Source: Edaphochlamys debaryana
Taxonomy: Eukaryota > Chlorophyta > Chlorophyceae > Chlamydomonadales
Direction of reading: 5' to 3'
Length of the DNA stretch: 64,000 bases
Assembly (NCBI GenBank): GCA_016858145.1
Contig: JAEHOE010000069.1
Coordinates: forward strand, 62,001 to 126,000
Shown: one piece after another, positions 6,544-64,000 of the stretch
Layout: each line of letters opens with the position of its first letter
Numbering within the stretch: position 1 is the first letter of the stretch
Notes under the pieces: generated by a model
The model's input: only the letters and a program-made list of their open reading frames with translations
What the model was told of the DNA's origin: nothing
Databases searched by the model: none
Translations under genes and position numbers: made by a program

Positions 6544-7699
6544 AACGCTTGGTTCATGGGCAGGGTATGTATGAATGTGAAGGTCGGAGTAGCTCCACGG
6601 ACTCGGAAGCGGGCTTCAGTCAAGAACAGCGAGGGCTGCTGGATGCGATCTATGGAGGGGGCGGGGAGCAGGACCTTTGCTGCCCTGGCAGCCGCTTGCA
6701 AGCAAGGTCCTCTCCAGCCGCTGTTACACCCTACCCACGGACTTGCACGTACCGTATGTGACCCTGATAGCAGCGCGCGCGCTTCCTGAGCTTTCGACAG
6801 CTGTGGCTTGGGCGGGTAGTTGCGATCACGTCGATCACGTCAGCCGATGATGAGGGAAAGGTTGACGGCGGAGGAGCGAGGCTGACAGCTCGGGCGGGGC
6901 ACAGGCACGAGTGCCAGACTACGCGGCGGCGAGCGAGGGAGGTTGAGGGACCAGGCAAAGTGGTTAAGGCTCGTGGAGAAAGGTTCGGCATTTAAGCCTG
7001 GAGCTGAAGCTGCATGTGGGTCGGGGCCGGTACGTACCAGGTGCGGGTTACTGCCGACATGCGCCAAGCGACGCCCGAAGATGATTGCGAGCATATGGAT
7101 TTCATTCGAACCTGCTCGGTGGGGTTCTGTACAGCACTTCCTCGCAGGCGTGTCAGTCGGCATGTATGTGCGCCGCCCGAGCGGTCCTCCATCCAGCCGC
7201 CGCTGGCCTCGCCCCCGAAGCTTCACGTGGAGTGACCGCACGACGCAGTACCACCCAGTGTCTTAGCACGGCGCACGACGGCGCATTATGCGATGATAGC
7301 TCCGATGTCAGCGGTTGAACACCGCGGGGGCCCAGGGCCCAGGGCGGGCCCTAGCGTGTCGCCACGAACACCTGGCGAACACAACACGGTCGGCCGGGCT
7401 CCCCCGCCCCCACGCGCTTCCCTGCCTCAGTGTTCCTCCCTCTCCCTCATTGCGACCCTATCACGCGCTAGCCCGCCGGCGCAAAAGAGGGCGACTGCTG
7501 GTTCGTACCCTCCTTGCCGCCGAGGTCCTTTGCGTGTAACTGCAGTCACTCGCCGCAAAGCCCCATTATAGGCTTGAACAGCAACTCAACAAAGCGTGTA
7601 TGTGTGCAGCTGGCGCTGGCGCTCTGCACGAACTGAAATCACAGAAGCCAAACAACTGGCTTTCTAGGACACGTGCTGCCTGCAAGCGCAAGCATTGCA
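6544..7699. other. Spacer between the two + strand genes (3' UTR of the first, 5' region of the second)
   Basis: After the TAG at 6541 I find no spliceable coding exon. The stretch should hold the 3' UTR of the exostosin gene, up to a TGTAA near 7535, and the promoter and 5' UTR of the next gene. I see no clear TATA box. The open frames here have no recognisable protein features. Confidence 0.6.
7535..7539 (+). terminator. Candidate TGTAA polyadenylation signal of the exostosin gene
   Basis: TGTAA is the usual poly(A) signal of volvocine nuclear genes. This is the first copy I see downstream of the TAG at 6541. It lies about 990 bases after the stop and 160 bases before the next start codon, so the 3' UTR would be long. 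Confidence 0.45.
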
Positions 7700-11602: not shown

Positions 11603-11607
11603 TTACA
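11603..11607 (-). terminator. Candidate polyadenylation signal (TGTAA on the - strand) of the giant gene
   Basis: TTACA on the + strand reads TGTAA on the - strand, about 620 bases beyond the giant gene's stop codon. A second copy lies at 10784-10788. I see none nearer the stop. Confidence 0.45.
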
Positions 11608-12224: not shown

Positions 12225-13289
12225 CTACTTGCTGTGCGCCGCCGAGTTGTGCGCTCCGAGCCTAGATCGACGTGCAGTGAGGACCAGCATGATAGCGCCA
12301 ATTACGAATGCATTCGATATAAAGACAACAAACATGATTGAAGGGACCGAGGGGTTGCTCGACATAAACTGGGCCGACACGCGGGTCAAGCCACTGCTGC
12401 TAGCATCCGACGAGGGGGCCGTCGGGAGAGCCACCCCTTCCGCATCCTCGCCCGCTGCTGTACTGGCGTCAGGATGGGTGTCCGCCGCCTGAACCCCGTG
12501 GCGCCCAGCGCCTAGATGGGACGCCGCCATATCACCGCCCGCCGAGAGCAGGCGGCGCAAAGGCTCCACTGCGTTGACCTCATGCTCCCTGACGTGCGCC
12601 TCCCACGCCGCCGCAAGGCCAAGCTGATGGGCCCTCACCGCGCCCTCCACGAGGGCCTCCTCAAGCTCCTCCTCGCTCGCGTCCTCCAGGGCCTGCTCCG
12701 CGAGCGAAGCGGGCACAGAGATTCCGCGAACAGTCCCGATCTGCTCGTCCAACTTGCCGTACAGGCACGAGCTCTGGTCACGCAGCATGTCCGCAAGCAG
12801 GGAGCCGGTGGTGGCAGCGCTGGCGCCGGCGTCCTCGTCACCCACGGCCGTGATCTCGAGGAGCTGCAGGAGTTTGGGGTGAGCAGGGAAATGACGTGAG
12901 CAATCAGAAGGTCATCCCCCACTCGTACAGAGCCGTGCTTGTTGCGCTTACCGTGAAGGAGCGCACGACATCCCGAACCGCGTCCGTTGCCGCCACCAAA
13001 GCCCTTGGGTAGCCGGCCGGCAGGACAGCCGAACCTAGCGTCCGCTCGGCTTCTGATCCCGCAGCGTTAGCAGCGCCCGCCACACGTGTCTCAGCGCCAG
13101 GCTGCGCAGCTGTGCCTGCGGCTGCCTTGGCAAGCTGAATCCTCCCCACGTCCTCGCTCCAGCACTCCTGGATGGCTTCGTTGACCACCGCGATCAGCCG
13201 CTGGTTGGAGGCCTCGCGCCTCGCCTCCAGTCGGTCCAGGAAGGCGACCATGTCCTCGCCCCGGCGGAAGGCCTCCTCCTCGAGCAGCT
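12225..13289 (-). other. C-terminal helical stalk, transmembrane helix and tail of the giant protein
   Basis: Two exons (12951-13289 and 12225-12861) encode the C terminus. The first begins [18 protein letters not shown] and is rich in Ala, Glu, Arg and Leu, so it probably forms a helical or coiled-coil stalk. The second adds another acidic helical stretch and a Ser/Ala/Thr-rich linker. A 21-residue hydrophobic helix follows (12276-12338, [21 protein letters not shown]). The tail is 16 residues, starts ARRSRL and ends AAHSK. Positive charges directly after the helix fit a type I orientation with the tail in the cytoplasm. Confidence 0.85.
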
Positions 13290-49200: not shown

Positions 49201-52200
49201 CCAGAGCCCGCTGCTGCCACTGTGGCGGTCGAGGAAAGCGGTGAAAGTACGGGTCGGAAAGCCACGGTTCAAAACGCCGCAGCCCTACAAGCCCGGATGC
49301 AACTACACCCGCAACGTTCGTTGTGCTTTACGCTTACTCTGAAGGCAGGACCAGCTCGATGCAGTCCTCAACCCCGTCGGTGTCGTTTGGCTCGCCAGGC
49401 GCCCACACCGGGATCGCCGCCACGGAGGTTCCATCAACCCACGTGATGTCGGTGAGGTTGTTGCCTAACAGAAGGGATAGATAGCCCGAAACCATGACGT
49501 AAGCTTCACAGTTTCGCGCTTGCCTAGGAACGCGCAGCCTTATTGCGTCACGGATCGCACCTGGTCGCTTTGCACCCAACCACACGGACACGTTCCCGCC
49601 TAGGGCAGCGCTGGACCAGGAGCGGACCATCTGTGCCAGGATGGCAACCTGCGGTCGTCAGCAGTAGAAAGAGGGTCAGCATGGCGATCGAAGGGGCAAC
49701 AAGATGCAACAGTGAACCAGGAACAAAAGCTTGCCTCATTGCTGGAGTTCAGGGTCACGAGGTTGCCGCCCTTCTGCTGGCAGAACACCGCCGCCTGGTT
49801 CCAATCCAAGAGGATGTCGTACAACGAGATCTTGCTGTCGCGCAATACCGACTGTGTGGTCATTGATACTGCCGGAAAGCTTGACGTTGCGACTGGCTCC
49901 GCGTCATCGCTTGCGGGGGTGGAGAGGTCCAGGGTGCTGCGGAGCCCTGAGATGCCTAGCGGGCATGTCCTCACAAGGGCGTACGTTCCAGCCGGCTGGA
50001 AGTTCAGGAGCTCAGGGCTGATGTAGCGCACTCCGCGCAGGGAAGATGAAGCGGCACTGGAGGTGTTGGAACCAGCCGAGATCAGGTTGTCAATCTTTGC
50101 AACACCACCGCTTTCGATAGCAATGTCGGCGAGCGAAGATGCGCCATCTTGAATGACGGCGTTGTCGCTGTGAGGATAGATGTGCGGGGGCAAGGCAAAA
50201 TCAAGGGCGGTGCATTCTTGCAGGCAGAACCTAGTGGCGATTGCAGGCAGTCCGTGCTTAGAGCAGGAACTGGCGAATGCATGCAGTCCACCCGTACTCA
50301 CCACTCGATGCGCAAACTGAGGACATCGCTTGTCGAGGCCTCCACATTGGACAGGACAGATACGACCTTGCTTCCAGAGGGGCACTCAAACTTGAAGGGG
50401 CTTCCTGGCACCCGCACCGGTCCTCGGGCCGGCAGTTGGGCTGCGGGAAGTGCCAAGGCAGCGGTCAAGCCATGAGCGTCTTTGGATGGGGAGAACGCAC
50501 TACTAGATTAGCCCAGCTTGCATTCACATGTTGCTCCCTGATTATCTCCACTGAACTGACCTGAGAGTGATCGGATGCCGTCTTGGTCTGGATAGTCCGA
50601 GCACGTGAGCTTGAGGTTGTGAAGGTACGAAACGGGGGCGCTCCCGTTCCCACTGCTGGGCAGGAGTATCATCTCGCCCCCATCCCATATAAACCGCGAG
50701 CGGAGGAGAGCGATGCCCGATACCACGGAACGGGATTTGCACTTCTCAAAGTACATGTCGCCGTCCTGCGTGCACGAGTGGCCAGGCAACAGCAGCGCTT
50801 GAAGTCCCCACGTGCGGGCCAGGCAGCAGCAGCGCTTGAAACGCCCTCGTGAACACACGAACTGTTGCGGAAAGACGGTCTGGCAACTTACCGTAACGTC
50901 CGGAGAATAGGCCAGGCGAGAGGTGTGGTCGTAGGTGTCCGCACAAAGGGCGTCCAGCGTAAGCATCACGCCGGGGGCTTCAGTCCCGTTGGACAAAAGC
51001 GGCACCACGGGGTGCGCAAGTGCCCGCCCCGTGACCGCCGCAATGCCGGCCGGGCAGCGAACTGTGGTAAACTCAACTCCTCCTTCGGGCGACAGCGGCG
51101 TGAAGGTGTCGAGGACTGTGGGAGCGCGCCAAAGGCAATTTCGGGGTGAGGATCAAGGGCTGAGAATCGACAAGCCAACTTAGTTCCCGGTAGCGTAGGT
51201 TATCGAGACAACAGGTGTATGTGCTTGAAACAGCGGATATATCCCATCCATCGTCAAGCCAGGAGTGCAAATGCCCCCCAAAGAGAGCCCACCTCGCGAA
51301 ATGCCGGCAGGACCGCTGCAGAGGATGCCCAAGGCCTTAACAAACGGCGAGGGGACGTTTGCCGTGTCGTTTGTCGCAACGTCGTACCTACATCGGCGGA
51401 CGGGGTGTGTTCGACCTCATGCCCCGTCGAGGCAAGTCAAGCGCCCCAGCATGCATGCCGCGCCCTCCGCTGTTGTTGAGCCCGCGTACCTTCCAAACAG
51501 AGCCTCCACGTACTGTCCAGGCGGGCAGTTGATGTACGCAGGCTGCATTCCCGTCACCCCGGTCGGGTCGGCGATGGTTGCTGCAGCGGAGAGGCGAGAG
51601 GCGGTCAGTGATGTTCAAGGGGGCATCGTCACTGAGCAGAGTAGCTCGAGCCCCGCCTGCGATCCCCCAACACGTCACGCCCGCCCACCGGGGCTCTCAC
51701 CGGGCACACGCGGAGGCGGGAGCACTCCCGAACGAGTGCATCGGAACACCAGGCTGGTAATGAATATCTGACCGCTCGAGTGTGTTTGCTGGGTCCAAAG
51801 GATCTGGCTGAGGGCAGCGCCCGTGGGGCAGGCATATGTCCATCGCCGGTAGCCGGGGAGCGCCACCATTGACCGAAGGTTTGGCGGGGGGCCGCCCAAG
51901 CAACTGCGACCAGAAAGGGAAGGGAAACGTAATAAGAGGACGCATTCAACTTACTGTGTTCCAGCCAAGGAGGGCATGCATAGCCTGACGCTCACCCAAA
52001 CACAAATGATGTGATGATGGTCGGGCGCGTCGTGTTCCACATGTTGACCAGGCCTGCACGCAAGCGGTTGAGGGGTTTGAGGAAAGGCCGAGCGCGCAAG
52101 TGCTTGACGACACATGTCGTTGAAACCTGTGCAACTCACCTATGATGGTGCTGATTCCCGCGTTGCCACAGGGGGTTGTGTTTGGCGGCTGCAAGTCAGT

Positions 52201-55200
52201 CCGCAGCAGACGGTTACAACCAAGGCAGCAATCATCGCACACCCAACCCGCTCCTCACGCACACCCAGCGAACACTGCCAGCCCTTCATACCGTGAGCTG
52301 GTAAAGATCCGTCGACATGGGCGCGGACGCCACAAGCATGGTGTTGTCCTGCGGCCCCCCGGAGGCCGGTGCAGCTGGAACGCACTTGGCGCTGACACCC
52401 GCGTAGGGCACGTTGAAGGGACCGTCCGAGAAGGCCCAGCTTCCGTAAGGCAAGGTCGGCCAGATATCGCTGATGATGTGGCCCGGCGGGCAGCGAGTTG
52501 CGCCCTGCACTTGGGAGTCCGCCCAGGGCGAGCCGGAAACAAAGTCGCCAATCACACGAGAGCAGCCCGTGCAGAATGGAGCATCTGCGGGGCAAGTGCG
52601 AGTGTTGCGCTCAGAAAGAATAAAATTGCAGGCGGATGAATTGGCTTTATGATTGGCCGGCAGATGGGTAACCGTCTCTGCCTCGCGCCGAACCTCCTAC
52701 CGCTGAGGAAGCTGGAAGGAGGCGGGGGCGGGGGCGCGGGGGGCGGGAGCATCGGCGGCTGGGCTGGGGGCCTCAGCGGCGCCCTGGGCGGCGAGGGGGA
52801 GAGCGGCGGCACGGGCGGCGGCGAGGGGCGCGGCGGGGGCGCGGCTGGAATCTGGGGCGCCATTGGGGGTGAGGGAGGCGAAGGGGGCTGGGGGCGAGGC
52901 ATCGGCGGCTTGGGTGGAATCGGGCGCGGCGAGGGGGGAGCCCTGGGAGGGGGCTTCGGTCGGGGGCTCGGGGGCGGCGGCGGGATGCTAGGGGGTGCGG
53001 GGCTAGGCGGTGGCCGCGGCGGCCGAGGTGCCGGCGGGCGAGGCGACTTGGGGACCGGGGGTGGCCGGGGAGGAGGGGACTTGATGGGGGGAACGGGCGG
53101 GGACGGGGGACGGGGCGGCGAGGGTCGGGGAGAGGGGGGGGATGGGCGTGGCGAAGGCGGAGAGGGAGGTGAGGGCGGAGGCCTGGATGGGGCCAAGGGT
53201 GGCATGGGTGGGTTCGGTAGGCCGGGTGGTTCGGGGGAAGGCGGAAGAGGCGGAGAGAGCGGCGGGTTGGGCGGCGGAGTAGGTGGCGCATCAGGCGCTG
53301 GCGGGGGTAAGGGGGGGCGATCCGGCGAGGCTGGGAACCGAATTGCGCCACCGTATGACGTAGAGAAGCCGGTCGAGTCCACGGCGCTCCTTGTGACGGC
53401 GGCCGTCGGTACATCGGAGCTGCAGAAGCAAAAGCCCTGGGGACTCTGCCACGTGTACCTGTATGTGCAGTTGGGTGTTCCACGTCAGCGTGAGGGCGGT
53501 GAAGAGCGGTGAGCCTACTGTACGTGACGATCGACGACGACACCTAAACGTGATGGACAGCTGCGTTTTGAGGGCAGCCTGACTCACCCGTAGTACGTGG
53601 GGGTGGTGCTGTTTGCACAGGCGCTGCAGCAGTCACCCTGGGTTGCGAACGAGCCTTCAGCAAAGAGGGGCAATGCGTGTATCGTCAGGAGCAGGGGAAG
53701 AGAAGCGCCCGATACTGGATGCGCACACGCCTAACAGCCGAGAGCGCCCGCAGATTCCCGCAAAAGGGTACAAAAGGGTTGGGTGCCCCTGCCGGTGAAC
53801 GTCCCCACCTGACAGCCGCGTCGAGGAAGTTCCATCGTACTCTGTACGACAGATCGAAAGCGCGAGATAGAGGAGAGAACGAAGCAGGTCAGCGGGGTGT
53901 TCGGCCAGGTCGTCGTTACGTACTTCATCCCCGAACGAAATGTCCCATCACACGCACCTGTGTCCGCGACCGCAGCCCACACGCACTCGTCCTGCATCAG
54001 GCGCCGACCAGCCCTGCCAAGACCTTCCAACGGGCTCTGGCTTTGGAGGTCTACCCCGCCACCGGTGCTACCGCCAAAGGCAATGAGGAAACGGCGGCCG
54101 GTGGACGCGACGGTCAGGGGCGGCGCTGGGGATGGCGGGCGTGGCGGGCTTGGCGGCTTCGGCGGTGGAGTGGGCGGGATGGGAGGGCGTGGAGGACTCG
54201 GTGGTTTCGGGGGGCTGGGTCCCGGTGACGGCGGCCGTGGGGGAGAGGGAGGTGCGGGCGAGGGAGGACGTGGGCTAGGGGGTCTTGGTAAGGGGGGTGA
54301 GGGCCGTGGAGATGGGGGACTGGGTGGTGAGGGCGGTAGAGGGGAGGGCTGGGGCGAAGGAGATGGGGGCTTGGGTGGTGAAGGAGACGGCGGTGCGGGC
54401 GGCTTTGGGGGTGCGGGAGACGGGGGGCGTGGAGCGGGCGGCTTGGGTGGTGCAGGCGAGGGAGGGCGCGGCGAGGGTGGCTTGGGTGGTGCAGGGGAAG
54501 GTGGCGGTGACGGGGGCCGGGGAGACGGGGGGCTGGGCGACGGAGGAGAAGGCGAAGGCGGCTTTGGCGAGGGGGGCTTCGGCGGGCGTGGTGACGGCGG
54601 CGGACGGGGTGGGCCGGGAGGGGGAGCGGGGGGCGGTGGTGGGGGCGGCGAAGGCGGCGGGGGTGGGGGCGGCGGCGAAGGGGGTGGCGGCGGGGGCGGA
54701 TAGGAGAGGTCCCTGATGGGACCGCACGTCAAGCGCAGCGCGTTAACGCGTACCAGCTGGACCGACCAGTTCGGCTCGCCAATCCCAGATAGGCCAACTC
54801 CACCCAGCCCCTCCGGGCACTGGTAGTCGAACAGGCCACCGGCAGTAGCGCAAGGGCGCAACAGCTCCTCCGGAAGCACGGGGCGGGCGTCGCCGTTACC
54901 GCACGTAACGGTCAGCTGCGCAAAGCGGAGGGCGAGGCGTGGCACGCTCAGAGCTAGGTCAGGGGATGTTCAAGACACGATGTGTGAAAGCATGCCCTGA
55001 TTAGGACTCCCCAAACTTGGCCTGACTAGAAATCTGAACGCCCTTCTCACCGAGCACAGGCCGTCGGTGTCGAAGGCCCCGCTGATGCCCCGCACGCCCT
55101 TCTCCGCGCAGTCCGCAGTGCCCATGGCCATGCCAGTCGACCTGTAGTTCATTGCGAACCCAGTCTGTACGGCAGCTGGGTAGAGGCCCATGCACGCGCC

Positions 55201-58200
55201 GCCGACATCGACAATCTGTAGTGTGCTGGTGTCGTACACCAGGCTGACGCTTCCCAGCTGCGGGTTGACGGAATCCTCCGAACAGGTGAGAGCAAAGGGC
55301 ATGCTGGTCGGAGAACCCGAGCCATCTTCCGGGTAGATGATTCCTGGCTCGTTGGCAACGGCGAGCGTGGATGGCCAGCCAAAGAGAGGGCTCATGGACT
55401 GGACGGGCTCAACCGTGTTGACTGGGTCGTCAACGGTGATCGTGTCGCCAGCGAGGACCGAGTCACTCCGGAAGCACACCCTGGGAGGATTCAAGTGGGG
55501 GGGGGGGGGGTTGTTGCCAATTGCCCGTTCAAGAGAGGACAAGCAGCCGCGGGAACCTGCATCCGCAGAGCTCCCTATCTCACCGGTCCTCGACGCTCGT
55601 CACGTCAAGCATGTCCTTGGGAGTAAAGGACCTGCGGGCACACGTCGAGCAGCAAGCCTGAGAGCCTCCACGGGGAGCAGGAGAGTACGAGCAGTACTGG
55701 GCCACCATGGCGAAACCCTCAGCACCGGCGCACCTGGCGAGGTCCGTGGTCCAGGGCTTAGCCATGAGGTAGCACAGGTTCATCTGGACGCCTCTGGTCG
55801 GGTCCACGTCGCCCCACTGCACGGCAAGCAGTGCAAGGGGCCAAGTCTCAGCAGGAGGTCCGTTACACGCCTTCACACCCTGTGGGGGTCTAGGTAGCCT
55901 CCAGCCGCTAGGCGGGGAAAGCTTTCCTACCCAGCTGCCCAAGTCCACATTCTCACCTGTGGTAGGTAGGTGTAGAATACGCACTTTGGCGCCAGCATGC
56001 ACGACGTGGCGCACTGGGCCTCAGTGTCCGGGTTTGTGGGCATGCGCGGGAGGAGCTCGCCGGGCACGATAAAGGCCAGGCCGTTGGGGCGGGCGAGGCA
56101 GAAGAAGCCGGGGGTCAGCGTGGCGGCGGGCGTGGCTGCGGGGAAGCGGCAAGAGCGGGTTCAGGTCCAGTAGCCCGCCTACCGAAGGAGGATTCCGACA
56201 AGCAAGGTAAAGCATCATCAGGACCACGACAAGCACGCTATCTAACTATCCGGTGTACTTACTCCTCTGGCAGACGGTTGGGGCCTTGGCCATGCAGGAC
56301 ACTGAGTACAGGCCGGGTGGCAGGAAGAGGGTGGAGGTAGAGTTGAAGCTTGGAGGCGGGGGATCGGGGGCGAAGGGCGGCGGGGCGCCCGGGGGGTTGG
56401 CGGGCGGCGGGTTGGGGGATCCGATGTAGGTGGTGTTGATGGGAGGGAAGGGAGGGCTGGGGCGGCTGGGTGCCGCAGGCTTTGGTGGCGAGGGGCTGGG
56501 CGGCCGCGGAGGCGGCGGGCTCAGGCGCTGAGCTCCCATGCCTCCCGCAGCGCTCGCGTTCCACACGCTCAGGATAAAGTCAGCCTGGAGCACGGGGAGG
56601 AAGGGGCGAGTCGCACTCGGTGAGGCACGCGGTACGTGAGCTGCACACCTCCTTTGCAGAGAACCGGCGGCCACGGCTTTGCGGCAACCGCCCTTCACAC
56701 CCGTCGACTCACCGGCAGAGTGACGTTGGCGCCCTTGGGTCCCACCAAAAGGCCGCATGCCGCGTCCCCGAACTCCCCCGGCTCCCAGGCGTCCAGGAAG
56801 CCATCCACGGAGAAGGAGCCGTCGGTCCAGTAGAGCTGGGGGCGGGGGAAGGGGGGGAGGAGGCGGCAAGGGAGGGCATCCGGGGACTCAGCGCCCAGCA
56901 CGCGGTGGGCGGGCAAGCACAGCTTGCTGCGCCAGTGATCCCAGTTGTCCTAGTGCTGGCTGATCGATGCATGCGCAGCGCTTCATCAAACGATGCCATC
57001 TGCGTACCTGGCCGTCGCCATAGGCCCTCAGCCCCAGCCACATGTAGGCCGGGAGGTCCTTGTGGTACCGAGTGGTAGACAGCAGGTCGGAGCGAGCCCA
57101 GGCGTTGGTCAGGGAGGGGAGCTCGGTCTGCGTAGGGCATCAGGCAGGGGACGGAAGGCGTGAATGAAAAGCCATTCATTAGGCTTTCGTCGTCAGGCCT
57201 GGCACGCACACGCCCCACTAGCTTCTCCTCACCGCGTACGTCCTGCACAGCTTCTGGGCCTCCGGCATGGTGAGCATTAGCCCCGGCTGCGAGTCGTCGG
57301 CCGGCGGGAACACGATGAGGCTGCCGCTGGGGAACGGCACGGAGCGGACGCGGCTCAGGTCCACACCGTCCGCGAGCGTGCGGGGACCTGCGCAGGGAGA
57401 AGGCGCGGCCAGCAGTTTGCAGGTGCATCCGTTGGCATTCTTTAAGCGGCAGAAGCGACTTAAACACGCACCCTGGTCCAGTCCGGGCCTTCCAAAACTT
57501 ACGCTCGCACACGAAGGGCAGGGCAACGCCGCAGCTCATGTCGCTCCACTGAGCCTCGGTCGACACAACCTGGCGGGAATCGGCGGCGCAAAAGCGTGAT
57601 GTTGGGAGCCACCTCTCTGGCGTGGCACCACGACAGCACGCGTGATGCGCCCCAAATAGATCCCTACGCCCCAAGCCAGCGCGCACGCACCTCCCGGAGG
57701 CCCGCACCAGCGCTTCCCGCCAGCTGCACGCTCGCCGCCACGCAGTCCTCATTGCCGAACCTGTTGAAGAATAGGCAATGCGGTCAGGACGTCTGCACAA
57801 ACGACATGGATGCTCGCGATAGGCCCAGTACCGCAGCGGCGCCCCCTGACCCTGTGCGCACCTGTTGTCCGGCTGGCCCCCAGCCCAGGAGGTGGACGTG
57901 AAGTCCTTGCCGTTGGCCCACACAAAGCGCCCCTCTTGCGCTGCAGGAGGCATGGAACGCAGTGCAGCCGGGGCCATTCAGCGCCAATGGGTGTCTGGAC
58001 CATGTCGCGCCCGAACGAGTCTGAAGAGGCAAGGGAACCCCTCGCTCCTGGATGGGTCCCACGTCCCTCATTCACAGGAACCCCTCAGCCCACCCAACCC
58101 CTTTCTCTCCTACCCGCGTCGTTGCCCCCCAGCCACACGAACACGTCGCGGCCCGTGAGCACGTCGTTCTGCCCCAGCTCGCCGCTGCTGGCCCAGCCGC

Positions 58201-61200
58201 TGAGCAGCGAGTAGAGCACGGCGCCCTCGGACAGGGAGGGCAGGGACACCAGGTCGCCGCCCACCGCCTGGCAGTGCGCGCGGGCGTCGGACCAGGACTT
58301 GCGGACCTGCGGGCGAGAGAGAACCCGCCGAGGAGCGGGGCGAGGTGGGGGCGAGGTCAGGAGGATGGAGGGGGCACATGCATAGAGTTTGCCTGGCTGG
58401 GGCTTTTCCAGGGCCACAGGTTCCGGTCTTGCAGGACACTGTCCACGTCCAGGGCCCACTACACGCACCTCCGCAACACACACCCCGCACCCTGCACACC
58501 TGCCACAGCTGGAACTCGCTGTTGCCCAGGTTGGCCACCAGCTCGGGGGTGCCGATGTCAGAGGTGCCGGCGACGGACACTGTGTGGTGATGAGGGGAAG
58601 AGGCGCGGAAGCAAGGGGAGGTGTTCGGGGGCCTCGCCCGCAAAGACCCACACCAACCGGGGGCCCGGCAATCCATGTAGGGCAGATCCGCCTCCCGTTT
58701 CACGCAGTCCCGCGTGCTGCTCACCTGTGTTGGTGCACTCGGGGGTGGCATAGGCGGAGCACTGCGCGGGGTCGCCCTTGAGCCCCTCCGCCAGCACGCC
58801 CACGAGCTCGCCGTAGCTGGGGTTGGGCGAGGAAGGTTTGCGTCAGGTGGAGTTGGAAGAGGCGGGATAAGTGAGGAAAAGCCTCGGCGGCCCTTCGGTC
58901 GCACCGCCGGGGTACCAAACCGATAAGAAATGCATGGTGGAAGGGGCATGAAGCTATGGATTAGGAGGAAGCCCTGGGCTACCTGGGCCCGCTCCTGTCG
59001 CTGTCCGAGGACAGGCAGGGATAAGGCCGATACCGAATACGTGGGGCCCAGATCTGATCACCCCTGGCCTCACCTGTCGCTATCGATATCGTAAAGACCG
59101 ACGCCGCCAACGCAGTGATCGCGCGCAAAGCACAGCTGCGAGGAAAGGGTGAAAACAGGTATCGCTGGTGGGGCTGACGCACTTAGCCCTGGGCAGCAAA
59201 GGCACGTATCATAGTCCCTCTCCCCGACAGAGCGTTGCCATCCACCCACCTTGTTGATGAGCGTGTAGGGGTCATCGTAGTGAGTCTGCGCAGGAAGGGC
59301 GGCGATACAGCGGAAGATGGACGCGGTAACACGTGGAATTCGCTCAGCATGAGGGCCCCTGGCTCGTGTCAGGGCCCCACCACTTGTGCCCCCAACGTAC
59401 CCCCCAACCGCCCAAGCGCACTCACCCACTGGTTGCCCGCGAAGGGCGCGAAGTTTGCGAATGCCTCTGTGTCCAGCCGCGCCCCGCCCGGGGGCACCAG
59501 CAGGCGCAGCTCGGACTGGTCCAGCAGCCCCTCGGCGCCCATGCAGGGGCCGGGGGTGCCGGGGCCTGGGGAGGGGCGGGGGCGGGCGTGCAGGAGGCGG
59601 GCAAGGTAGGGCCGCGGCACATTGTTGCAAGAGCCGGACACACTAGCCAAATTGTCGCAGCGGCCAGTCAAACTACCCAAACTCAGTGGCAGGTAGCGTT
59701 CGTCTGCTCCTCACCTCCCACCAGCCCGTCCCCGTCCAGCAGGTAGGACCGGCCCATGGCTGAGGCAATGAGGGACAGGTGCTGCGGAGGGGCGCCCGCC
59801 GCCAGGATCTGGGGGAGGAGGATGTGTACGGCAGGGAAGCGGTAGTCATGCGATTCACGGTTGATCCAGAATCCCACGCCCTGCCCCACCCCGGCCGCTC
59901 CCCGCCCACCCTGTCGAGCATGGTGTTGACTGAGAGCCCCGTGGCCTCGAGGCAGTCGAACAGGGGCGTCTCCACGTAGGGAGCGGCGCCCAGCACCTCG
60001 TCGCCGCCCATGTCAAAGGCCTGCGGGGGGCGGAGGGCGGAGCGATACCGAGGGAGCCGGTACGGAGGTAGGCCAGAGGCAGTTGTGTACACGCCTGGTG
60101 GATGACAGGGATGCATTGATAGCTTGATCAAGCTCATGAGACTCTGTGTCTTACGTACCTGGAAGTTTATCATGCTCACGAACGTGGCCAGGTAGTCCCA
60201 GGGCAGGTCCAGGTAGACCTCGCTGGGGGGCACCGCCAGGGACAGCAGCTTGCCGGCGGGCAGCAGCGCCTCCGAGAGGGCGAACAGGAGCTGGGCGTAG
60301 CCCAGGAGCTGGGGGTGGGGGGTGAAGGAAGGGAAGCAGAAGGGCGGGTGCGGGTGAGGTTATGTAGCGGAAGTGGTGCAGTGGAGGGGACGGGTGTGGG
60401 CTGTCAAGGACTGAACAATTGGGCGTCGCTGATGGCTCACCTGCGCCTTCTTGAGCGAGGGCCAGCTCAGCTCGATGCCGTCCAGGTCGTACAGTACGGC
60501 AAAATCCAGGGCGGCCTGAGTTTAAGGGGAGTGGATGGAGGCGGTATGTTGGCGGAGCATTGATAACCATGGGGATGACACGGCTAGGCACGACGCGAGA
60601 ACTGCCGAACTTCCGCAGGCCGGCCCGGGGCCCCCCAAAAGCAAGCTGCTTCACGCGCACCTTCGCAAACGCGTCGTTAGACTGGGCGTTTACCACGAGG
60701 CGTGGGAAGCCGTCATCGTTGCCGTCACCGCCCACGCTGGCCAACACCTTGGCGCCTGGGTTGATACGCTTGACGGAGCTGTCACAACGGAGGTAAGGGT
60801 GATGGGGTTTCAACGTCGGTGCGAAGCGAGAAGACAGGATCGCAGCTAGCGATGGGTCGAGGCTCTAGAGGCTCACCTGGCCAGTCGGGCCAGGGTCATG
60901 CGGTCCCGCTCGCGGAGCGTGATGTTGAGTCCCTCGGGGTTGGGGACCACGTGGGCAAAGATGACGTGGGAGGCACGGGCGGCGGTGGCCAGGGGGTCGG
61001 CCTGGGAGGCCTGGCTGTAGCAGGCGGGAGACCTGATGCATCGGGGGCAGGCATACGAACAGGCGGGAGAGGTTGATGGCAGAGAGCACCAGGGCAATCC
61101 ACCCCGAAGATTGGGTCGGGAGGGACAGGCGGACACCGGCACGGCATGGGGTTCAACACAGGCCGCGGCCCTGCATCCGTGCCCGCTCGCCCACCTGTCC

Positions 61201-64000
61201 CTGCGCCTGTTAGAGTGGTAGAGCACGAGGCGGCGGGGCACTCCGCAGCGCTGCTCCACGGGGGCATCCATGATGGGCTGAGGGGAGGCAACCACGCTGG
61301 CCAGGGCTGCGGGGGGGGAGGGAGGGCGGGAGGGAGGGCACAGAGGGTGAAACGGTAGCCAAGGTTTGACATCTCATGCATGGTACGGACCCGGGCACCG
61401 GCCACGGACCGGGGATCCCGGTCAGTCGGCTCACTCTGGTCTGCCTCGCCCAGGCGCTGCTGGCGGGAGATGTGGGGGCTGATGGTGGCGGGCTTGTCGT
61501 ACATGGCGGAGGAGATGGGGGGCTTGAAGGCGCTGCCGGTGGAGACCATGTAGAAGGCGCCGGCCTCGGTGAACACCAGCAGGTCATCGCGGCCTGGGGG
61601 GGGGGGGGGAGAGAGGTGAGGGGGCGCAGCCAAGGAACGAACTTGCTTGGTACGTACAGGCAGGTCGTGAGGGCTGCTGAGCGAGGGCGTCAACGGAACA
61701 CGGTCCTCCTCCAGTCTAGCCCCGCTCCTGCCCCCCTGCCCTCACCGTCCAGGTCCACGTCAGCCACCTGCACCAGAGTGGGGTACGCGGGCACCACACC
61801 CCAGGGCTTGAGCGAGCCAGTCATGTAGACCCTGGGGGGAGACGGAAGCCGAGCGGTCAGTGGGGGGGCACGACGGAGCCCCCAAACGGCCTTATCAGCA
61901 GGCGAGTGCCGACGAGGTGTTGTTTGGTAAGTGCGTACGGCAGCGCACCTTCCGTCGTACGAGCCGATGCAGGCCATCTGCGGCACGAGGCTGCCGGCAC
62001 TGCTCTCGTCCACCGGTCCGTCGGGGCCCTGGAACAAGGCGGGGGCAGGAACACGGAAGTTCAGGGCAGGACAGGGAATGAGGCAGGCAGGCTGTAAGTA
62101 GTCATTGAACTCTGACGGACAGCCCAACACCAGAAGCGGAGGGACAGCGGGAGGGCGGACTCTCCAGCTCACCACGAAGTTACCCATGACCACTGCCCAG
62201 GGGGAGGTGCAGGCGCTGCGGGGGAAGTTGGCGGGCGCGCCCATTGCCCTGCGGGGGAGGACGAGGGAAGTAGGTGCCAAACGGGCGTTCAAGACACGAC
62301 CGCCGCTAAATGTTTGCGCCAGCTCAAGCGGATTTCATACCCAGACCGAGCCAAGGCCCAAGCAGCGCTTCTCTTGGGCCCCTTCCAGGCCTCCGCGGCT
62401 CACCAGTTGAGGGGCGCGGGGGTGCTGAGGGCGACGTAGGTGAGGTAGACCTCGTGGGTGGGCGTAACCCGGTCCAGGTAGGCCTGAGGTACGGACGCAC
62501 GGGAACGGGGCGAGGGACGAGGCAAGGCGCGGTGAGGGCGTGCACGATGAGGCAGGCGCGTGAGATGCATACACCGGGAGGTGTCCGTACCCGCCTTGGC
62601 CTTGCACCCCCCACCCCCCTTGCGTCCGCTCACCAGCACCACGTCGTTGAGTCCGTCTCCGTTCATGTCGGCAGTCAGCAGGAAGCAGTCCTCGCCCAGG
62701 GAGGAGCACCTGGGTAGGGCAGGAGACCGGGAGGGGAGACAAGGGAATGACGAACGCGCCGGGCCTCGGGGTACTCGGGGCAGGCCCGCACAGTTCCCCG
62801 TCGGTCAGGCCCCGCTCCAGTCCACGCAAGACCACCCGCAAGGCCTGCCCGCCTGCCGCTCACTTGACCGAGATACTGCGCAGCTCGTGCCACGTGATGC
62901 CACCCCCGTCAGAATCTGCAGGTAAGGGGGCATACAGCGTCAAGCCCCGACCTTGCGAGCCTTTAACCCACGATGCAGTCCGGTGCGTTCCCGCACCACA
63001 CGCACCGTCCGTCAGGCTCGAGACCCGGTCAGATGGGTAGTACGACAGGCGCATGAGGGCACGATCCAGCATGACTAAGTCGGCGGCGCCGTCAGCCGTT
63101 ACGTCGATGAGCAGGTAGGCGCGGTTGGTGGAGTTGCTTGTGTCGATGGTGTCGGCCCATTTCGACACGTCAAGCCACGTCGACAGCCGCCCAAAGGTGA
63201 GCGCACCGCCCGCCACGGCCACCTGGGGCGGAGCGGGGGCGTGGGTGGGTCAACGCCCGCTGGCAAATCACGCTTGGGAACATGTCCAGAGCCTAGGAAT
63301 CGACCCACATCAAGTCCTTGCCCGCTCCAGGCCCGTGACAGCTCAGAACCCTCCCCTCGTCCAAACTCCCACAACCGCTGGAGCCCCTCACCAGCACTCG
63401 GTCGCTCCGGAACACCACCAGATCGTCACGGCCGTCGGCGGTGACGTCCTATCGAAGGGGAAACGGGCCGCAAGTATGGGCACCGAGGGTCAGCTAGAGG
63501 TCAGGGAGAGGCACGTGACAGCCGGGGCTCCGCTGCCACATCTGTTGTCTTGGCCCTCTGCACGGGTTCCCTCCCGCCCTCCTCCCCGCTCACCGCCAGC
63601 AGCATGGTGCTGGGCATGGCGTCCAGCGCTCCGAAGGTCACGGGCGTGGGGGTGCCCAGGATGCTCTTCCAGGGCCGGCCCATGAGGGCGGTGCCGCGGA
63701 GCTCGCCGTTTAGGTACGACACAATCAGCAGATCCTGAGAGGGCATGAGATCACGGGGAGGTCAGCTGGCTATGGGGACCAGACCGGGCCCCTCATGCCA
63801 TGGCCCTGTGACGCACGGCCTGACCCGCCCACACGCACCTGCGCCCGGTCCCCGGATCCGTCATCCGCGAACTCCCCGACCAGCATGACTGTGGACTCGG
63901 TGCGGGGGCTGACCGTGGACAGAGCGCTGCTGCCAACCTGTAACCACAGAGGGGGCCGAAGCGAGCACAGATTAGATTGGCGCAGCCAGAGTCCCCACGC
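12225..64000 (-). CDS. Giant multi-lectin, multi-domain type I membrane protein (5' partial)
   Basis: An almost continuous ladder of short exons runs on the - strand from the right edge to a TAG read at 12227-12225. Each exon is flanked by AG acceptors and GT donors. Introns are mostly 80-300 bases, and I see no gap large enough to be a clear intergenic region. The exons encode, in order, FG-GAP repeats, a GH18-like domain, about 16 C-type lectin-like domains with PAN/WSC-like, Pro-rich and ricin-B inserts, seven discoidin-like repeats, a large conserved ectodomain, one transmembrane helix and a short tail. My estimate is 6,500-7,500 residues here. The start codon and signal peptide lie beyond 64000. 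The likely role is cell-surface or matrix recognition of glycans (inference). The single-gene reading rests on exon continuity and on finding only one membrane anchor, at the far 3' end. An alternative is two or more genes, with a possible break near 45.6-45.8 kb. Confidence 0.6.
13437..25740 (-). other. Large conserved juxtamembrane ectodomain with [12 protein letters not shown] motif
   Basis: About 60 short exons encode roughly 2,000 residues of mixed beta-rich and helical sequence. At 21,150-21,560 the segment [15 protein letters not shown] continues across an intron as [10 protein letters not shown], giving an [12 protein letters not shown] motif. From memory this resembles a motif in giant surface proteins of other protists and some bacteria; I cannot search to confirm. 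Near the 3' end the exons read [38 protein letters not shown] and [16 protein letters not shown]. That is the pattern of tandem Ig-like beta-sandwiches (D-T/R-x-P-P and D-x-x-GN signatures) preceding the membrane. A helical part at 20,420-20,760 is Lys/Ala-rich ([18 protein letters not shown]). No enzymatic motif was recognised. Confidence 0.6.
15033..15118. repeat. 43-base tandem duplication in an intron of the giant gene
   Basis: ACCTCAACCCTTCCAG(T/C)AGC-type units start at 15033 and 15076 with a few substitutions between copies. The pair lies in the intron between the exons at about 15160-15220 and 14870-14978. Confidence 0.8.
25845..26085 (-). other. Single FG-GAP-like unit followed by a CGDG...EECD motif
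   Basis: One exon reads [17 protein letters not shown], the D-x-(S/D)-G-D-G-xx-D-L calcium-loop pattern of FG-GAP/VCBS blades. It ends [19 protein letters not shown], which matches the short Cys motif (CGDGxxxxGEECDDGN) seen in Cys-rich repeats of bacterial and protist surface proteins. It separates the last lectin-like domain from the juxtamembrane ectodomain. Confidence 0.6.
26150..26835 (-). other. C-type lectin-like domain 16 (last copy)
   Basis: The exons encode [18 protein letters not shown], then [25 protein letters not shown]... with VWVGYADF, then a segment ending [14 protein letters not shown]. This is the usual order of helix with Cys, 'hmWiG' strand, and final 'W/C...FxC' strand. 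The glycan loop reads GEPASCGY, so the canonical EPN/QPD triad is absent and classical calcium-dependent sugar binding is doubtful. Confidence 0.7.
26925..33110 (-). other. Seven tandem discoidin (F5/8 type C)-like repeats
   Basis: Each repeat is spread over about four to seven exons with the same order. It opens with NVA(I/L)G(R/K)PxxASS, then a segment with SPWxAV(D/E)LG, then V.I.NR, then E(I/L)RIGxxPxxx and a [13 protein letters not shown] strand. It closes with GSWVTLQ and IxEIQVYG. Starts lie near 33.1, 32.1, 31.4, 30.4, 29.65, 28.4 and 27.7 kb. Examples are [43 protein letters not shown] and FQRPTFASS. The family usually binds carbohydrate or membrane lipid outside the cell. The shared exon layout implies growth by duplication of an exon cassette. 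Confidence 0.75.
33200..33921 (-). other. C-type lectin-like domain 15
   Basis: The exons encode [19 protein letters not shown], then [16 protein letters not shown] with [11 protein letters not shown], then ENWRMLGQ, and finally a strand ending [12 protein letters not shown]. The order matches the array's other lectin-like domains. No EPN/QPD/WND triad is visible. It sits between the WSC pair and the discoidin-like repeats. Confidence 0.65.
34035..35090 (-). other. Two WSC domains and a C-terminal lectin-like strand
   Basis: The first WSC is split over three exons: [24 protein letters not shown] and a piece ending [15 protein letters not shown]. The second reads [40 protein letters not shown], then [19 protein letters not shown] and FIYR. 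This is the standard eight-Cys WSC pattern (GCxxD...C...A...QxGxxCxCG...C...C...CGG...Y). WSC domains bind wall polysaccharide in fungi and algae. The same exon continues into a lectin-like ending, [12 protein letters not shown]. Confidence 0.75.
35273..35325 (-). promoter_or_regulatory. Pol III B-box match with degenerate A-box, in an intron
   Basis: On the - strand, GGTTCAAGTCC (35283-35273) is a perfect B-box. TGGCTGGGCTGC (35325-35314) is an A-box with two mismatches, about 30 bases upstream of it. The T-stem does not pair and no cloverleaf forms, so this is not a working tRNA gene. It could be a tRNA-derived SINE remnant or chance. It lies in the otherwise exon-free stretch 35.10-35.58 kb. 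Confidence 0.3.
35600..36610 (-). other. Ricin-B-type (beta-trefoil) lectin domain
   Basis: The exons encode [15 protein letters not shown], then [16 protein letters not shown] followed by SNANQLW. Next come [17 protein letters not shown] and [10 protein letters not shown], then WRYVQLTPC, and [20 protein letters not shown] with [11 protein letters not shown](D/G) openings, 'GTxVxxxxC' strands and a QxW motif are the marks of a ricin-B trefoil, here covering about two subdomains. The family binds galactose or GalNAc. Aromatic and Asp contact residues are only partly kept. Confidence 0.7.
36700..37400 (-). other. C-type lectin-like domain 14
   Basis: The first exon contains [20 protein letters not shown] and ends near FVGVR, the signature opening of these lectin domains. 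The next exon reads [20 protein letters not shown]. The following ones carry [19 protein letters not shown] and CQPGKCLST, ending SWSCYAG. A PRND replaces EPND in the sugar loop. It leads into the ricin-B domain. Confidence 0.6.
37028..37057. repeat. Imperfect palindrome of alternating purine-pyrimidine
   Basis: Starting TTGCGCGCACGCG and ending GCTTGCGCAA, this 30-base run of GC/AC alternation in an intron is nearly self-complementary. It is of a type that can adopt Z-DNA or a hairpin. Confidence 0.7.
37623..38830 (-). other. C-type lectin-like domain 13 plus an aromatic-rich segment
   Basis: The exons encode [20 protein letters not shown], then [18 protein letters not shown] with FWFGLSK, then [14 protein letters not shown] and [13 protein letters not shown]. 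The EPNN loop followed by EACGEA matches the mannose-type EPN signature. An extra exon of about 65 residues ([25 protein letters not shown]) follows; I cannot assign it. Confidence 0.65.
38830..39660 (-). other. C-type lectin-like domain 12
   Basis: The first exon carries [22 protein letters not shown] (helix with the first Cys). The next carries [20 protein letters not shown] and GIWTGVAEA. The last ends [12 protein letters not shown], the typical C-terminal strand. No EPN/QPD triad is visible, so it is probably a structural or calcium-independent lectin-like domain. Confidence 0.7.
39820..40535 (-). other. C-type lectin-like domain 11
   Basis: The exons encode [16 protein letters not shown], then [18 protein letters not shown] with [14 protein letters not shown], then [11 protein letters not shown] with IDEWDYG, and last [18 protein letters not shown]. 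Length and Cys positions match a complete domain. The sugar-binding loop has EWDYG in place of EPND. Confidence 0.75.
40610..41400 (-). other. WSC/PAN-like cysteine module between lectin-like domains
   Basis: The exons read [20 protein letters not shown] with CGNPTAP, then [15 protein letters not shown], then [19 protein letters not shown] followed by CGRALTG, then a segment ending [11 protein letters not shown]. The DACVMAC...C...NCF...CSCG spacing resembles a degenerate WSC or PAN/apple module. Assignment to one family is uncertain. Confidence 0.45.
41475..42330 (-). other. C-type lectin-like domain 10
   Basis: The exons encode [20 protein letters not shown] followed by CNKQ, then [20 protein letters not shown] with [11 protein letters not shown], then [15 protein letters not shown], then DAWVAEDC and MAPVVCDKG. 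All structural strands are present. The loop residues are VDYRYG rather than EPN. Confidence 0.72.
42159..42191. repeat. Tandem ATACATGCATACGTGC-type repeat in an intron
   Basis: Two copies of a 16-base unit (GCATACATGCATACGT) lie in an intron within the lectin 10 exon group. The run is mostly alternating purine-pyrimidine and locally self-complementary. Confidence 0.75.
42450..43330 (-). other. C-type lectin-like domain 9
   Basis: The exons encode [17 protein letters not shown] (linker), then [20 protein letters not shown] and SFCKVEM, then [18 protein letters not shown] with [12 protein letters not shown], then [13 protein letters not shown]. The final exon is less certain; one frame there gives [13 protein letters not shown] and DASCFYHG. 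Confidence 0.55.
43500..44232 (-). other. C-type lectin-like domain 8
   Basis: The exons read [20 protein letters not shown] with [12 protein letters not shown], then [20 protein letters not shown] and FGLTKR, then a variable segment with [12 protein letters not shown] (potential N-glycosylation sites), then [14 protein letters not shown]. The opening is a textbook match to the array's consensus. The sugar-binding loop is not recognisable. Confidence 0.65.
44400..45600 (-). other. C-type lectin-like domain 7 with EPND motif; possible internal gene start
   Basis: The exons encode [20 protein letters not shown] followed by CALRG, then [16 protein letters not shown], then [19 protein letters not shown], then [13 protein letters not shown] and [22 protein letters not shown] plus EDCVAV is the calcium-dependent mannose-type signature. 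The first exon can be read from an ATG at 45600 whose product begins [16 protein letters not shown], which resembles a signal peptide. A splice acceptor (CACTAG) lies just upstream of the ATG, so it may equally be an internal exon. Confidence 0.68.
45836..46860 (-). other. Cysteine-bearing PAN-like segment between lectin-like domains 6 and 7
   Basis: The exons encode [40 protein letters not shown], a piece with [43 protein letters not shown], and [16 protein letters not shown]. The CxxxC...YAYC spacing resembles PAN/apple. The last piece resembles the closing strand of a lectin-like domain. After CRS the sequence can be read as a GTGAGT donor or, unspliced, as SE-stop. Confidence 0.45.
46915..47596 (-). 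other. C-type lectin-like domain 6
   Basis: The exons encode [20 protein letters not shown], then [20 protein letters not shown] and LVHIGLRDF, then [17 protein letters not shown] with FSAWAPGAV, ending [14 protein letters not shown]. The fold elements are complete. [10 protein letters not shown] replaces the W-x-G-E-P-N loop. Confidence 0.7.
47668..49050 (-). other. C-type lectin-like domains 4 (partial) and 5
   Basis: Domain 4 shows [12 protein letters not shown] and [20 protein letters not shown], then small exons (AIECCYH and [16 protein letters not shown]), but no clear sugar loop. Domain 5 reads [20 protein letters not shown] with [14 protein letters not shown], then [19 protein letters not shown], then [20 protein letters not shown] and [13 protein letters not shown]. 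The loop APND is close to EPND. Confidence 0.65.
49150..50180 (-). other. C-type lectin-like domain 3 with full EPN loop, after a Ser-rich linker
   Basis: After a Ser/Leu-rich linker ([35 protein letters not shown]) the lectin exons read [63 protein letters not shown] with [11 protein letters not shown], and [24 protein letters not shown] and EDC are both present. This is the best candidate in the array for an active mannose-type calcium-dependent lectin. Confidence 0.8.
50300..52586 (-). other. Series of Cys-containing beta-strand repeats (jacalin/VMO-like pattern)
   Basis: Repeated units share the pattern C-P-x-G-xx-(I/V)-xx-(I/L)...(V/I)-xx-L-x-(L/F)-x-C. Examples are [32 protein letters not shown] with [56 protein letters not shown] with LTLDALCAD, and [19 protein letters not shown]. 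This resembles beta-prism repeats of jacalin-like or vitelline-membrane type. I cannot assign the family with certainty. Confidence 0.5.
52649..53495 (-). other. Second Ser/Pro-rich spacer exon
   Basis: One exon begins [17 protein letters not shown] and turns into about 190 residues of PPSP, PPRP and SPPP repeats before returning to [10 protein letters not shown]. Such (SP)n/(PP)n tracts are hydroxyproline-arabinosylated rods in volvocine wall glycoproteins. The + strand counterpart is a long G-rich tract that creates a spurious Gly-rich open frame. Confidence 0.8.
53588..53850 (-). other. PAN-like cysteine module between the two Pro-rich spacers
   Basis: Two short exons read [11 protein letters not shown] and [20 protein letters not shown]. 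They join to the start of the second Pro-rich exon ([17 protein letters not shown]). The C...CC..C......Y....G.C.C spacing resembles a PAN/apple-type module and repeats that seen near 56.0 kb. Confidence 0.5.
53960..54945 (-). other. First Ser/Pro-rich spacer exon
   Basis: The exon starts with a beta-strand piece ([35 protein letters not shown]). It then runs into about 190 residues of [23 protein letters not shown] and RPPSPAPP repeats, and ends [14 protein letters not shown] and [10 protein letters not shown]. It is a rigid hydroxyproline-type rod as in pherophorins, but I do not see a classical pherophorin domain on either side. Confidence 0.8.
54970..56133 (-). other. PAN-like cysteine module followed by a beta-strand segment
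   Basis: The exons encode [19 protein letters not shown] and [19 protein letters not shown], then [20 protein letters not shown], then a 150-residue exon with [51 protein letters not shown] and [13 protein letters not shown]. The CxxxC....CVFYTY...NLCYL pattern fits PAN/apple. The following part belongs to the same beta-strand repeat type as 50.3-52.6 kb. Confidence 0.5.
56262..57388 (-). other. C-type lectin-like domain 2 with an internal Pro-rich insert
   Basis: The exons read [20 protein letters not shown] with AQKLCRTYA, then [20 protein letters not shown] and [12 protein letters not shown], then [20 protein letters not shown] with [12 protein letters not shown]. The last exon inserts about 55 residues of [19 protein letters not shown] sequence before the closing strand [25 protein letters not shown] stands where WxxGEPND is expected. 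A Pro-rich rod placed inside the lectin fold is unusual. Confidence 0.7.
57505..58579 (-). other. C-type lectin-like domain 1 with QPD (galactose-type) loop
   Basis: The exons encode [12 protein letters not shown], then [20 protein letters not shown] with [11 protein letters not shown], then [20 protein letters not shown] followed by PDNR, then [13 protein letters not shown], and [19 protein letters not shown]. All landmarks are present: paired Cys, W-x-G loop, NEDC and the final WSDMSC...FVC. In this family QPD instead of EPN normally selects galactose-type ligands. Confidence 0.85.
58722..61312 (-). other. GH18 chitinase-like domain with degenerate catalytic motif
   Basis: About eleven exons follow the GH18 order. 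They are [13 protein letters not shown] (strand 1), [20 protein letters not shown] (strand 2), [20 protein letters not shown] (the 'SxGG' strand) and [19 protein letters not shown] (strand 4). Then come LLSLAVPP, the [14 protein letters not shown] junction ('MxYD'-like strand 6), [18 protein letters not shown] (strand 7) and [14 protein letters not shown] (strand 8). The catalytic DxxDxDxE reads [10 protein letters not shown], so the acid/base Glu is replaced by Pro and the middle Asp by Ser. Chitinase activity is therefore unlikely. A chitin- or oligosaccharide-binding role, as in chi-lectins, is plausible. Confidence 0.82.
61430..63937 (-). other. N-terminal-side FG-GAP/VCBS repeats (continue beyond the window)
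   Basis: Eleven exons carry repeated calcium-loop motifs of integrin-type beta-propeller blades: [64 protein letters not shown] and [19 protein letters not shown]. Strands between them ([39 protein letters not shown]) fit VCBS/FG-GAP units. At least five units are visible and the series runs off the right edge. FG-GAP propellers are extracellular and ligand-binding. Confidence 0.8.

Follow-up and report, generated by a model that had tools for sequence, protein, structure and literature searches.

We conclude that a minus-strand locus of the alga Edaphochlamys debaryana is probably a single gene, and that it would encode a roughly 8,500-residue membrane glycoprotein of type I (~0.9 MDa before glycosylation) acting as a multivalent glycan-binding receptor at the cell surface. 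The DNA analysed, here called the window, comprises 64,000 nucleotides (positions 62001-126000 of a 641,907-base contig, in an assembly of 141.9 Mb and 502 contigs); positions are numbered from its first base, and those above 64000 extend the same numbering beyond its edge. The gene spans 12225-67410 in these extended coordinates, position 64000 being merely the edge of the window. The earlier note, made from the letters of the window, had proposed a surface protein of a volvocine alga, and the lineage is as proposed: E. debaryana is a unicellular member, and HYH03_011721, the published model of the locus, matches the N-terminal part of our product at 100% identity across the region searched. 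The exon ladder, domains, leader, helix, and a collinear one-gene paralogue are seen in the sequences, whereas a single transcript, glycosylation, the ligands, a location on the cell body or cilium, and a role in recognition or adhesion are inferred.

Gene model and exon ladder

Genes were predicted with a self-written, two-strand gene finder that was self-trained on 154 kb around the locus, starting from the codon usage of Chlamydomonas reinhardtii, which was then re-estimated. Decoding the segment from 12.0 to 67.5 kb by itself, with homology hints switched off, yielded a single gene with 179 exons (20,804 coding bases), compared with no exon in the reversed segment and 0, 4, and 0 exons in three block-shuffled versions, all of these runs using parameters already retrained on a forced single-gene model. 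The ladder of small minus-strand exons described earlier is thus real, and it does end at a single transmembrane helix, a hydrophobic helix of 19 residues in the last exon, before the stop at 12225.

The final model, obtained with homology hints at reduced strength and forced continuity as one gene, runs from 67410 to 12225 in 197 exons and encodes 8,482 residues. Its exons have a median length of 106 nt and its introns of 114.5 nt, with a longest intron of 1,389 nt; the donors are 188 GT and 8 GC and the acceptors 196 AG, dinucleotides that the gene-finding method imposes. The polypeptide (~902 kDa) contains 182 cysteines and 69 N-glycosylation sequons. Exon 64128-63999 is probably about 66 bases too long, since HYH03_011721 has the sequence of the shorter form, which ends at 64065 in earlier models. 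The least certain exons are those at 43.7-42.5 kb and 37-28 kb. The longest intron (36363-34975, minus strand) adjoins a weak ricin-type fragment, and exons may be missing there. No TGTAA signal was found within ~500 nt 3' of the stop; the next ones on the same strand are at 11607 and 10788.

The 5' end of the gene lies outside the window. An exon at 67410-67341, 3.4 kb beyond the window edge, encodes the leader MMPIRWLLLLVSLWALGCGTRAQ and joins the first scavenger receptor cysteine-rich (SRCR) domain at 67201 in phase; it agrees in position and kind with the leader of the paralogue HYH03_017217 (P0017). Three SRCR domains, likewise outside the window, were matched in three stretches (Pfam, 6.8e-35). 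The start at 73263 of an earlier model was dropped, because the leader at 67410 fits the paralogues better.

Domain architecture of the predicted protein

From its N-terminus, the product is predicted to comprise a signal peptide, three SRCR domains, an FG-GAP propeller, a GH18 domain that lacks the catalytic motif, two C-type lectin domains, and possibly a PAN domain, followed by two long proline-rich stretches flanking a cysteine-bearing segment and by a cysteine-containing region (Table 1). Next would come about 12 C-type lectin domains, some whole and some partial, interrupted by WSC-type inserts, and then a discoidin block and a last lectin domain; a conserved core of ~2,000 residues would lead to the single transmembrane helix and its short tail. 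The Pfam scan was run on ten pieces of the product, with the C-terminal end covered through the homologue P0002.

Table 1. Features of the giant gene within the window, ordered from the 5' to the 3' end of the gene after the first row (E values from Pfam unless stated otherwise; iE, values from the family-iterated C-type lectin profile).
Feature	Position	Strand	Evidence or remark
3' 51.8 kb of the gene	12225..64000	-	184 of 197 predicted exons start within the window
FG-GAP (beta-propeller) region	61535..63907	-	PF01839 2.9e-9; PF13517 2.1e-7
GH18 fold, catalytic motif absent (LDGIELSWP)	58810..61235	-	PF00704 4.2e-32; PDB chitinases 1.5e-20
C-type lectin domains 1 and 2 (QPD in the first)	56740..58517	-	Pfam and family profile
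Possible PAN domain	55465..56106	-	PAN_4 0.0061 and PAN_1 0.0062, below cut-offs; 2.9e-4 in P0017
Exon with proline-rich (PPSP-type) stretch	53958..54915	-	Published model departs from the proline frame here
Cysteine-bearing WSC/PAN-like segment between long proline-rich stretches	53410..53991	-	By eye; no Pfam match
Exon with second long proline-rich stretch	52701..53458	-	DNA reading and model comparison
Cysteine-containing region	49954..52584	-	No Pfam match; dermatopontin 0.0042 in P0017, below cut-off
C-type lectin domains 3 to 11	39830..49830	-	Family profile
WSC-like insert in the lectin block	near 41.1-40.9 kb	-	By eye
Two partial C-type lectin domains	37231..38273	-	iE 2e-6 and 8e-6
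Possible ricin-type fragment	36365..36586	-	RicinB_lectin_2, E 0.16 only
WSC domain(s)	34491..35005	-	Single frames 3.2e-5 and 0.026; spliced 1.7e-5; all below Pfam cut-off
Partial C-type lectin domain	33724..33902	-	iE 1.4e-5
Discoidin (F5/8 type C) block	26924..33036	-	PF22633 2.5e-24, three stretches
Last C-type lectin domain	26156..26734	-	iE 4.7e-20
Membrane-proximal core, ~2,000 residues	13554..26155	-	Conserved in Chlamydomonas; distant bacterial relatives
Single transmembrane helix	12279..12338	-	Short tail, then stop at 12225

The list of modules given in the earlier note was borne out for FG-GAP, the GH18 fold, and discoidin, and weakly for WSC; ricin-B was dropped as a confirmed domain, its best match among Pfam searches of single frames having an E of 0.16. 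The earlier count of about 16 C-type lectin-like domains compares with 15 at iE<1e-3 in the family-iterated profile, several of them partial (the shortest matches cover profile positions 1-28 and 1-35 of 135), and one further domain at 0.08. With the Pfam Lectin_C profile, six stretches were matched in four of the ten pieces (2e-20, 7.2e-15, 1.2e-20, and 3e-4, the last just below the cut-off). Three later domains carry the sugar motif EPN and domain 1 carries QPD, motifs that are tied to calcium-dependent binding of the mannose and galactose type, respectively. There is also a carboxypeptidase-regulatory-like Pfam match (1.6e-5, below the cut-off). The discoidin block has no aligned counterpart in the paralogue HYH03_015758 (P0025) or in HXX76_014794 (P0001) of C. 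incerta, but by eye the near paralogue HYH03_017219 starts with a discoidin-like piece; together these observations suggest that the block was gained within E. debaryana.

The GH18 match covers the whole profile (1-317 of 317), with LDGIELSWP aligned to HGLDLDYEYP of chitinase A at the catalytic site. Catalytic GH18 chitinases carry the motif DxxDxDxE, which was not found in the domain of the giant gene; the ELSW form is present in seven of the nine genes tested, and the pattern was unmatched in P0023 and P0024. Judged by these residues, the module is probably no enzyme and would most likely function as a lectin. Chitinase-like lectins such as chitinase-3-like protein 1 share the GH18 fold, and their PDB chains match with a best E of 9.5e-16; they have lost the catalytic glutamate and are free-standing proteins. 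Unlike chitinase-3-like protein 1, the GH18 domain described here is one module of a giant receptor.

The proline-rich stretches, of which the model has three (66, 231, and 229 residues), are probably hydroxylated, glycosylated rods that would hold a distal recognition head off the membrane. With a rise of ~0.3 nm per residue in a proline-rich rod, each long stretch could span ~70 nm. Hydroxylated, glycosylated proline-rich rods are reported for the mastigoneme proteins MST1 and MST3 (PMC11015965). The distal head and the proximal lectin block may bind glycans of the wall or of microbes multivalently and, in part, with calcium, while the core would present carbohydrate-binding folds at the membrane. 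The short tail leaves no room for an evident signalling domain; the protein may therefore tether, capture, adhere, or signal via partners.

Continuity of the gene and alternative readings

The claim that the ladder represents a single gene gains support from the DNA itself, from a one-gene paralogue, and from the ends of shorter models. When the DNA is read directly, the long exon 54915-53958 enters the proline-rich stretch in frame and is followed by small cysteine-bearing exons, the second proline-rich exon (53458-52701), and then exon 52584-52292; the splice phases agree, so that the reading passes through the split at 54 kb in the published annotation. HYH03_011721 stops at about 54.3 kb, where it reads the proline-rich exon out of frame (54712-54278, minus strand), and our first model read the same frame; we judge the 54 kb boundary of both models to be an artefact of this other frame and have rejected it. 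In the paralogue P0017, the proline frame is kept through a shorter stretch and on into the corresponding downstream sequence. The end of another paralogue, HYH03_013524, resembles the frame fault of HYH03_011721 by eye.

HYH03_015758, an E. debaryana paralogue of 7,810 aa on another contig that is annotated as a single gene, is the strongest evidence for a single gene. Its blastp chain is collinear over model residues 125-8471 (125-1937, 50% identity; 2346-3556, 33%; 3596-3879, 29%; 3885-4873, 33%; 5944-8471, 42%), and its order of SRCR, FG-GAP, GH18, C-type lectin, proline-rich, lectin block, core, and transmembrane helix is that of the model; it carries 16 C-type lectin domains (iE<1e-3), and a single transmembrane segment lies close to its end. 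It begins without a leader, and its continuity past the proline-rich stretch is uncertain, since the sequence that follows looks partly out of frame. These genomes were annotated using BRAKER with stranded RNA-seq (PMC8226300).

Other relatives span parts of the interval: P0017, P0019, and P0022 extend from the SRCR/GH18 region across the proline-rich stretch as far as later lectin domains; P0001 covers the part between the lectin block and the helix. HXX76_014795 and HXX76_014794 of C. incerta carry consecutive numbers and lie on equally long contigs, and their matches meet at ~43.9-43.0 kb of the window. The model introns there measure 90, 423, 86, 111, and 73 nt, which leaves little room for a gene end and a new start; the 423-nt intron could, by eye, house another open exon. 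HYH03_015758 is the sole annotated model that clearly bridges this interval. A count of 196 of 196 junctions bridged without HYH03_015758 was discarded as unusable, because it rests on a spurious repeat alignment of P0002.

The ends of the shorter models, judged by hydropathy and by eye, are complementary. All five C-terminal models (P0001-P0005) have the terminal helix and none has an evident leader; one of them, P0005 (HYH02_014272 of C. schloesseri), has an exocyst-like N-terminus in front of the family's C-terminal core and is probably a chimeric gene model. Among the nine N-terminal models (P0016-P0024), P0017, P0021, and P0024 have a leader and end without a helix; in P0023 one hydrophobic stretch lies near the start and a borderline one near the end; and the other five seem truncated at the start. 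We interpret these fragments as opposite ends of a single type I protein.

The gene finder itself did not always join the locus. The initial free decoding split it at ~54 kb, and in a later one the split beat one forced gene by ~10 nats (5482.3 vs 5472.7). Once the finder had been retrained on the model joined by force, it gave one gene whether decoding was free or forced, an agreement that is partly circular because of that retraining. With reduced hints, free decoding gave three minus-strand genes, split at the proline-rich exons, the splits being preferred by 6 and 18 nats (7443.0 vs 7436.8; 8788.1 vs 8770.1). Homology hints at full strength were discarded; under free decoding the locus fell into seven minus-strand genes. 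One gene nevertheless remains the better reading than several, though some decodings split the locus.

The alternative that agrees with these splits is that two or three separate genes encode a secreted SRCR/FG-GAP/GH18/lectin protein and a membrane-anchored lectin-core protein. Homologous loci are often annotated as separate models (014795/014794 in C. incerta; 017217/017219 and 015328/015331 in E. debaryana), and the N-terminal models P0020, P0021, P0023, and P0024 stop at the proline-rich stretch, as HYH03_011721 does near 54.3 kb. The end of HYH03_011721 lies, however, in a different frame, and the proline frame of the exon continues in phase; moreover, the split points vary from locus to locus, HYH03_015758 is annotated as one gene, and the five C-terminal models lack an evident leader, yet their products look extracellular. 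We therefore regard separate genes as unlikely.

If the gene is single, its product could still be a wall or matrix protein, with an ectodomain shed from the helix to become a structural, pherophorin-like component rather than a receptor. PPSP-type proline-rich stretches are typical of algal hydroxyproline-rich matrix proteins, and two such stretches of ~230 residues, the very large size, and a tail without an evident domain would suit such a protein; however, the helix is present at the C-terminus of all five C-terminal models and of HYH03_015758, and the domains are recognition folds, not matrix repeats, so that a matrix role appears unlikely. A ciliary tether of the mastigoneme type, in which an MST3-like protein links glycans to a polycystin-type channel, is highly improbable. 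According to PMC11015965, MST3 of C. reinhardtii is also giant and extracellular, with proline-rich rods and C-type lectin domains, and the large ectodomain with proline-rich stretches and lectin domains was found here as well. MST3 has a PKD-like transmembrane domain (PMC11015965), whereas the giant receptor has a single helix and in addition SRCR, FG-GAP, GH18, and discoidin domains; no multi-helix domain of the PKD type was found (the hydropathy scan gave one helix, and the Pfam matches include no PKD channel family).

Membrane-proximal core

The core is 43-57% identical to the five C-terminal homologues, and its Pfam matches are weak only: no Pfam family spanning it was found (the last part was scanned through P0002), nor did any PDB chain match P0002 at E 0.01. 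At low similarity the core is matched by the diatom protein P0006 and by P0007-P0015, a set of nine proteins of which eight carry Pfam domains of bacterial type. Four stretches of P0008 align collinearly with the core, two of them at weak E values (0.026 and 0.003); the strongest of the four includes a CPxExGT-type motif, and LRDPPGD is also common to both. In a genome scan with the bacterial alignment, 305 relatives were recognized among 328 pattern matches. The 78 bacterial loci that were kept (L017-L094) include 36 labelled Saprospiraceae, four Thermoanaerobaculia, and one labelled only 'bacterium', the rest being other Bacteroidota. The algal core is thus shared, at a distance, with proteins of Bacteroidota. 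Some of the large Bacteroidota relatives have T9SS-type sorting tails.

A quick tree of the core was built from 34 of the 68 full-length bacterial segments (from the 78 loci) and six algal rows, leaving out P0003 and the diatom P0006, which are without the exact cutting motif. In it the algal rows group together, as a single clade on a long branch next to all 34 bacterial rows. A recent bacterial transfer of the core is therefore not indicated and was set aside, the tree fixing neither direction nor date.

Relatives, possible role, and neighbouring genes

No description of the architecture was found in the literature searched, which lay mostly outside subscription papers; to this extent the statement in the earlier note that the architecture is undescribed holds, but databases already contain sequences of the family under the labels 'hypothetical protein' or 'Chitinase'. 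One, HYH03_015758 (labelled hypothetical protein/Chitinase), is nearly full-length; it resembles the model in the order from SRCR to helix, is 29-50% identical in the aligned stretches, and differs in its proline-rich stretches (77 and 59 residues vs 66, 231, and 229); its record also lists PF03762, which we take to be a vitelline-membrane domain. HXX76_014795 and HXX76_014794 of C. incerta and CHLRE_01g002861 of C. reinhardtii correspond to N- or C-terminal parts of the model, with aligned stretches mostly at 30-50% identity. The C. incerta architecture is annotated in pieces, and CHLRE_01g002861 covers the C-terminal part only, within the candidate lengths searched. The case points to an annotation fault in which proline-rich exons read in another frame split giant genes, and fragmented annotation blurs how SRCR and C-type lectin domains are assembled into whole algal receptors. 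The present locus and the paralogue of 7,810 aa between them show the architecture in full, leader and anchor included, and offer lectin modules that can be tested, so that the role of such receptors can be asked directly.

Like the giant receptor, the mannose receptor carries many C-type lectin domains on a membrane receptor and binds glycans multivalently (PMC6563452). The combination of at least eight C-type lectin domains with one helix is present here (15 domains, several partial). The N-terminal R-type (ricin) lectin of the mannose receptor was not found, the only match being at E 0.16 and mid-protein, nor was fibronectin type II matched in the ten pieces and P0002, some exons being uncertain. 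The giant receptor is also several times longer than the mannose receptor. By the features tested, the giant protein is not a GH18 enzyme, an MST3-type PKD protein, or a mannose receptor, and it may work like the last of these.

According to PMC8226300, C. reinhardtii has more than 30 genes with SRCR and/or C-type lectin domains (Wheeler et al., 2008), and one SRCR/C-type lectin orthogroup comprises 16 genes in E. debaryana vs at most one in five other species; the same paper relays suggested roles of these green-algal domains in immunity or chemoreception. As one joint reading, which we put forward tentatively and consider doubtful as a whole, the locus would belong to a family of near-megadalton type I pattern-recognition receptors of E. 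debaryana and Chlamydomonas that combines animal-like SRCR and C-type lectin modules, a dead chitinase serving as a lectin, and proline-rich rods with a core homologous to secreted surface proteins of Saprospiria-type bacteria. In this reading the family would have expanded in E. debaryana, where it would be the algal equivalent of microbe recognition by innate immunity. Mating ectosomes of C. reinhardtii are reported to contain six scavenger receptors and two lectin-receptor-related proteins (PMC6919629), which makes a ciliary location of the giant receptor possible; no link between the ectosome proteins and the giant-receptor family was found, and a literature search for Cre01.g002861 was empty.

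Two neighbours flank the giant gene. The lectin-like fragments seen between 69 and 73 kb are probably part of another gene on the same strand, with its own leader near 72076. At the other end, a plus-strand gene at window positions 1-10330 is convergent with the giant gene, and one frame of it has a weak exostosin GT47 match (E 0.047, below the cut-off).
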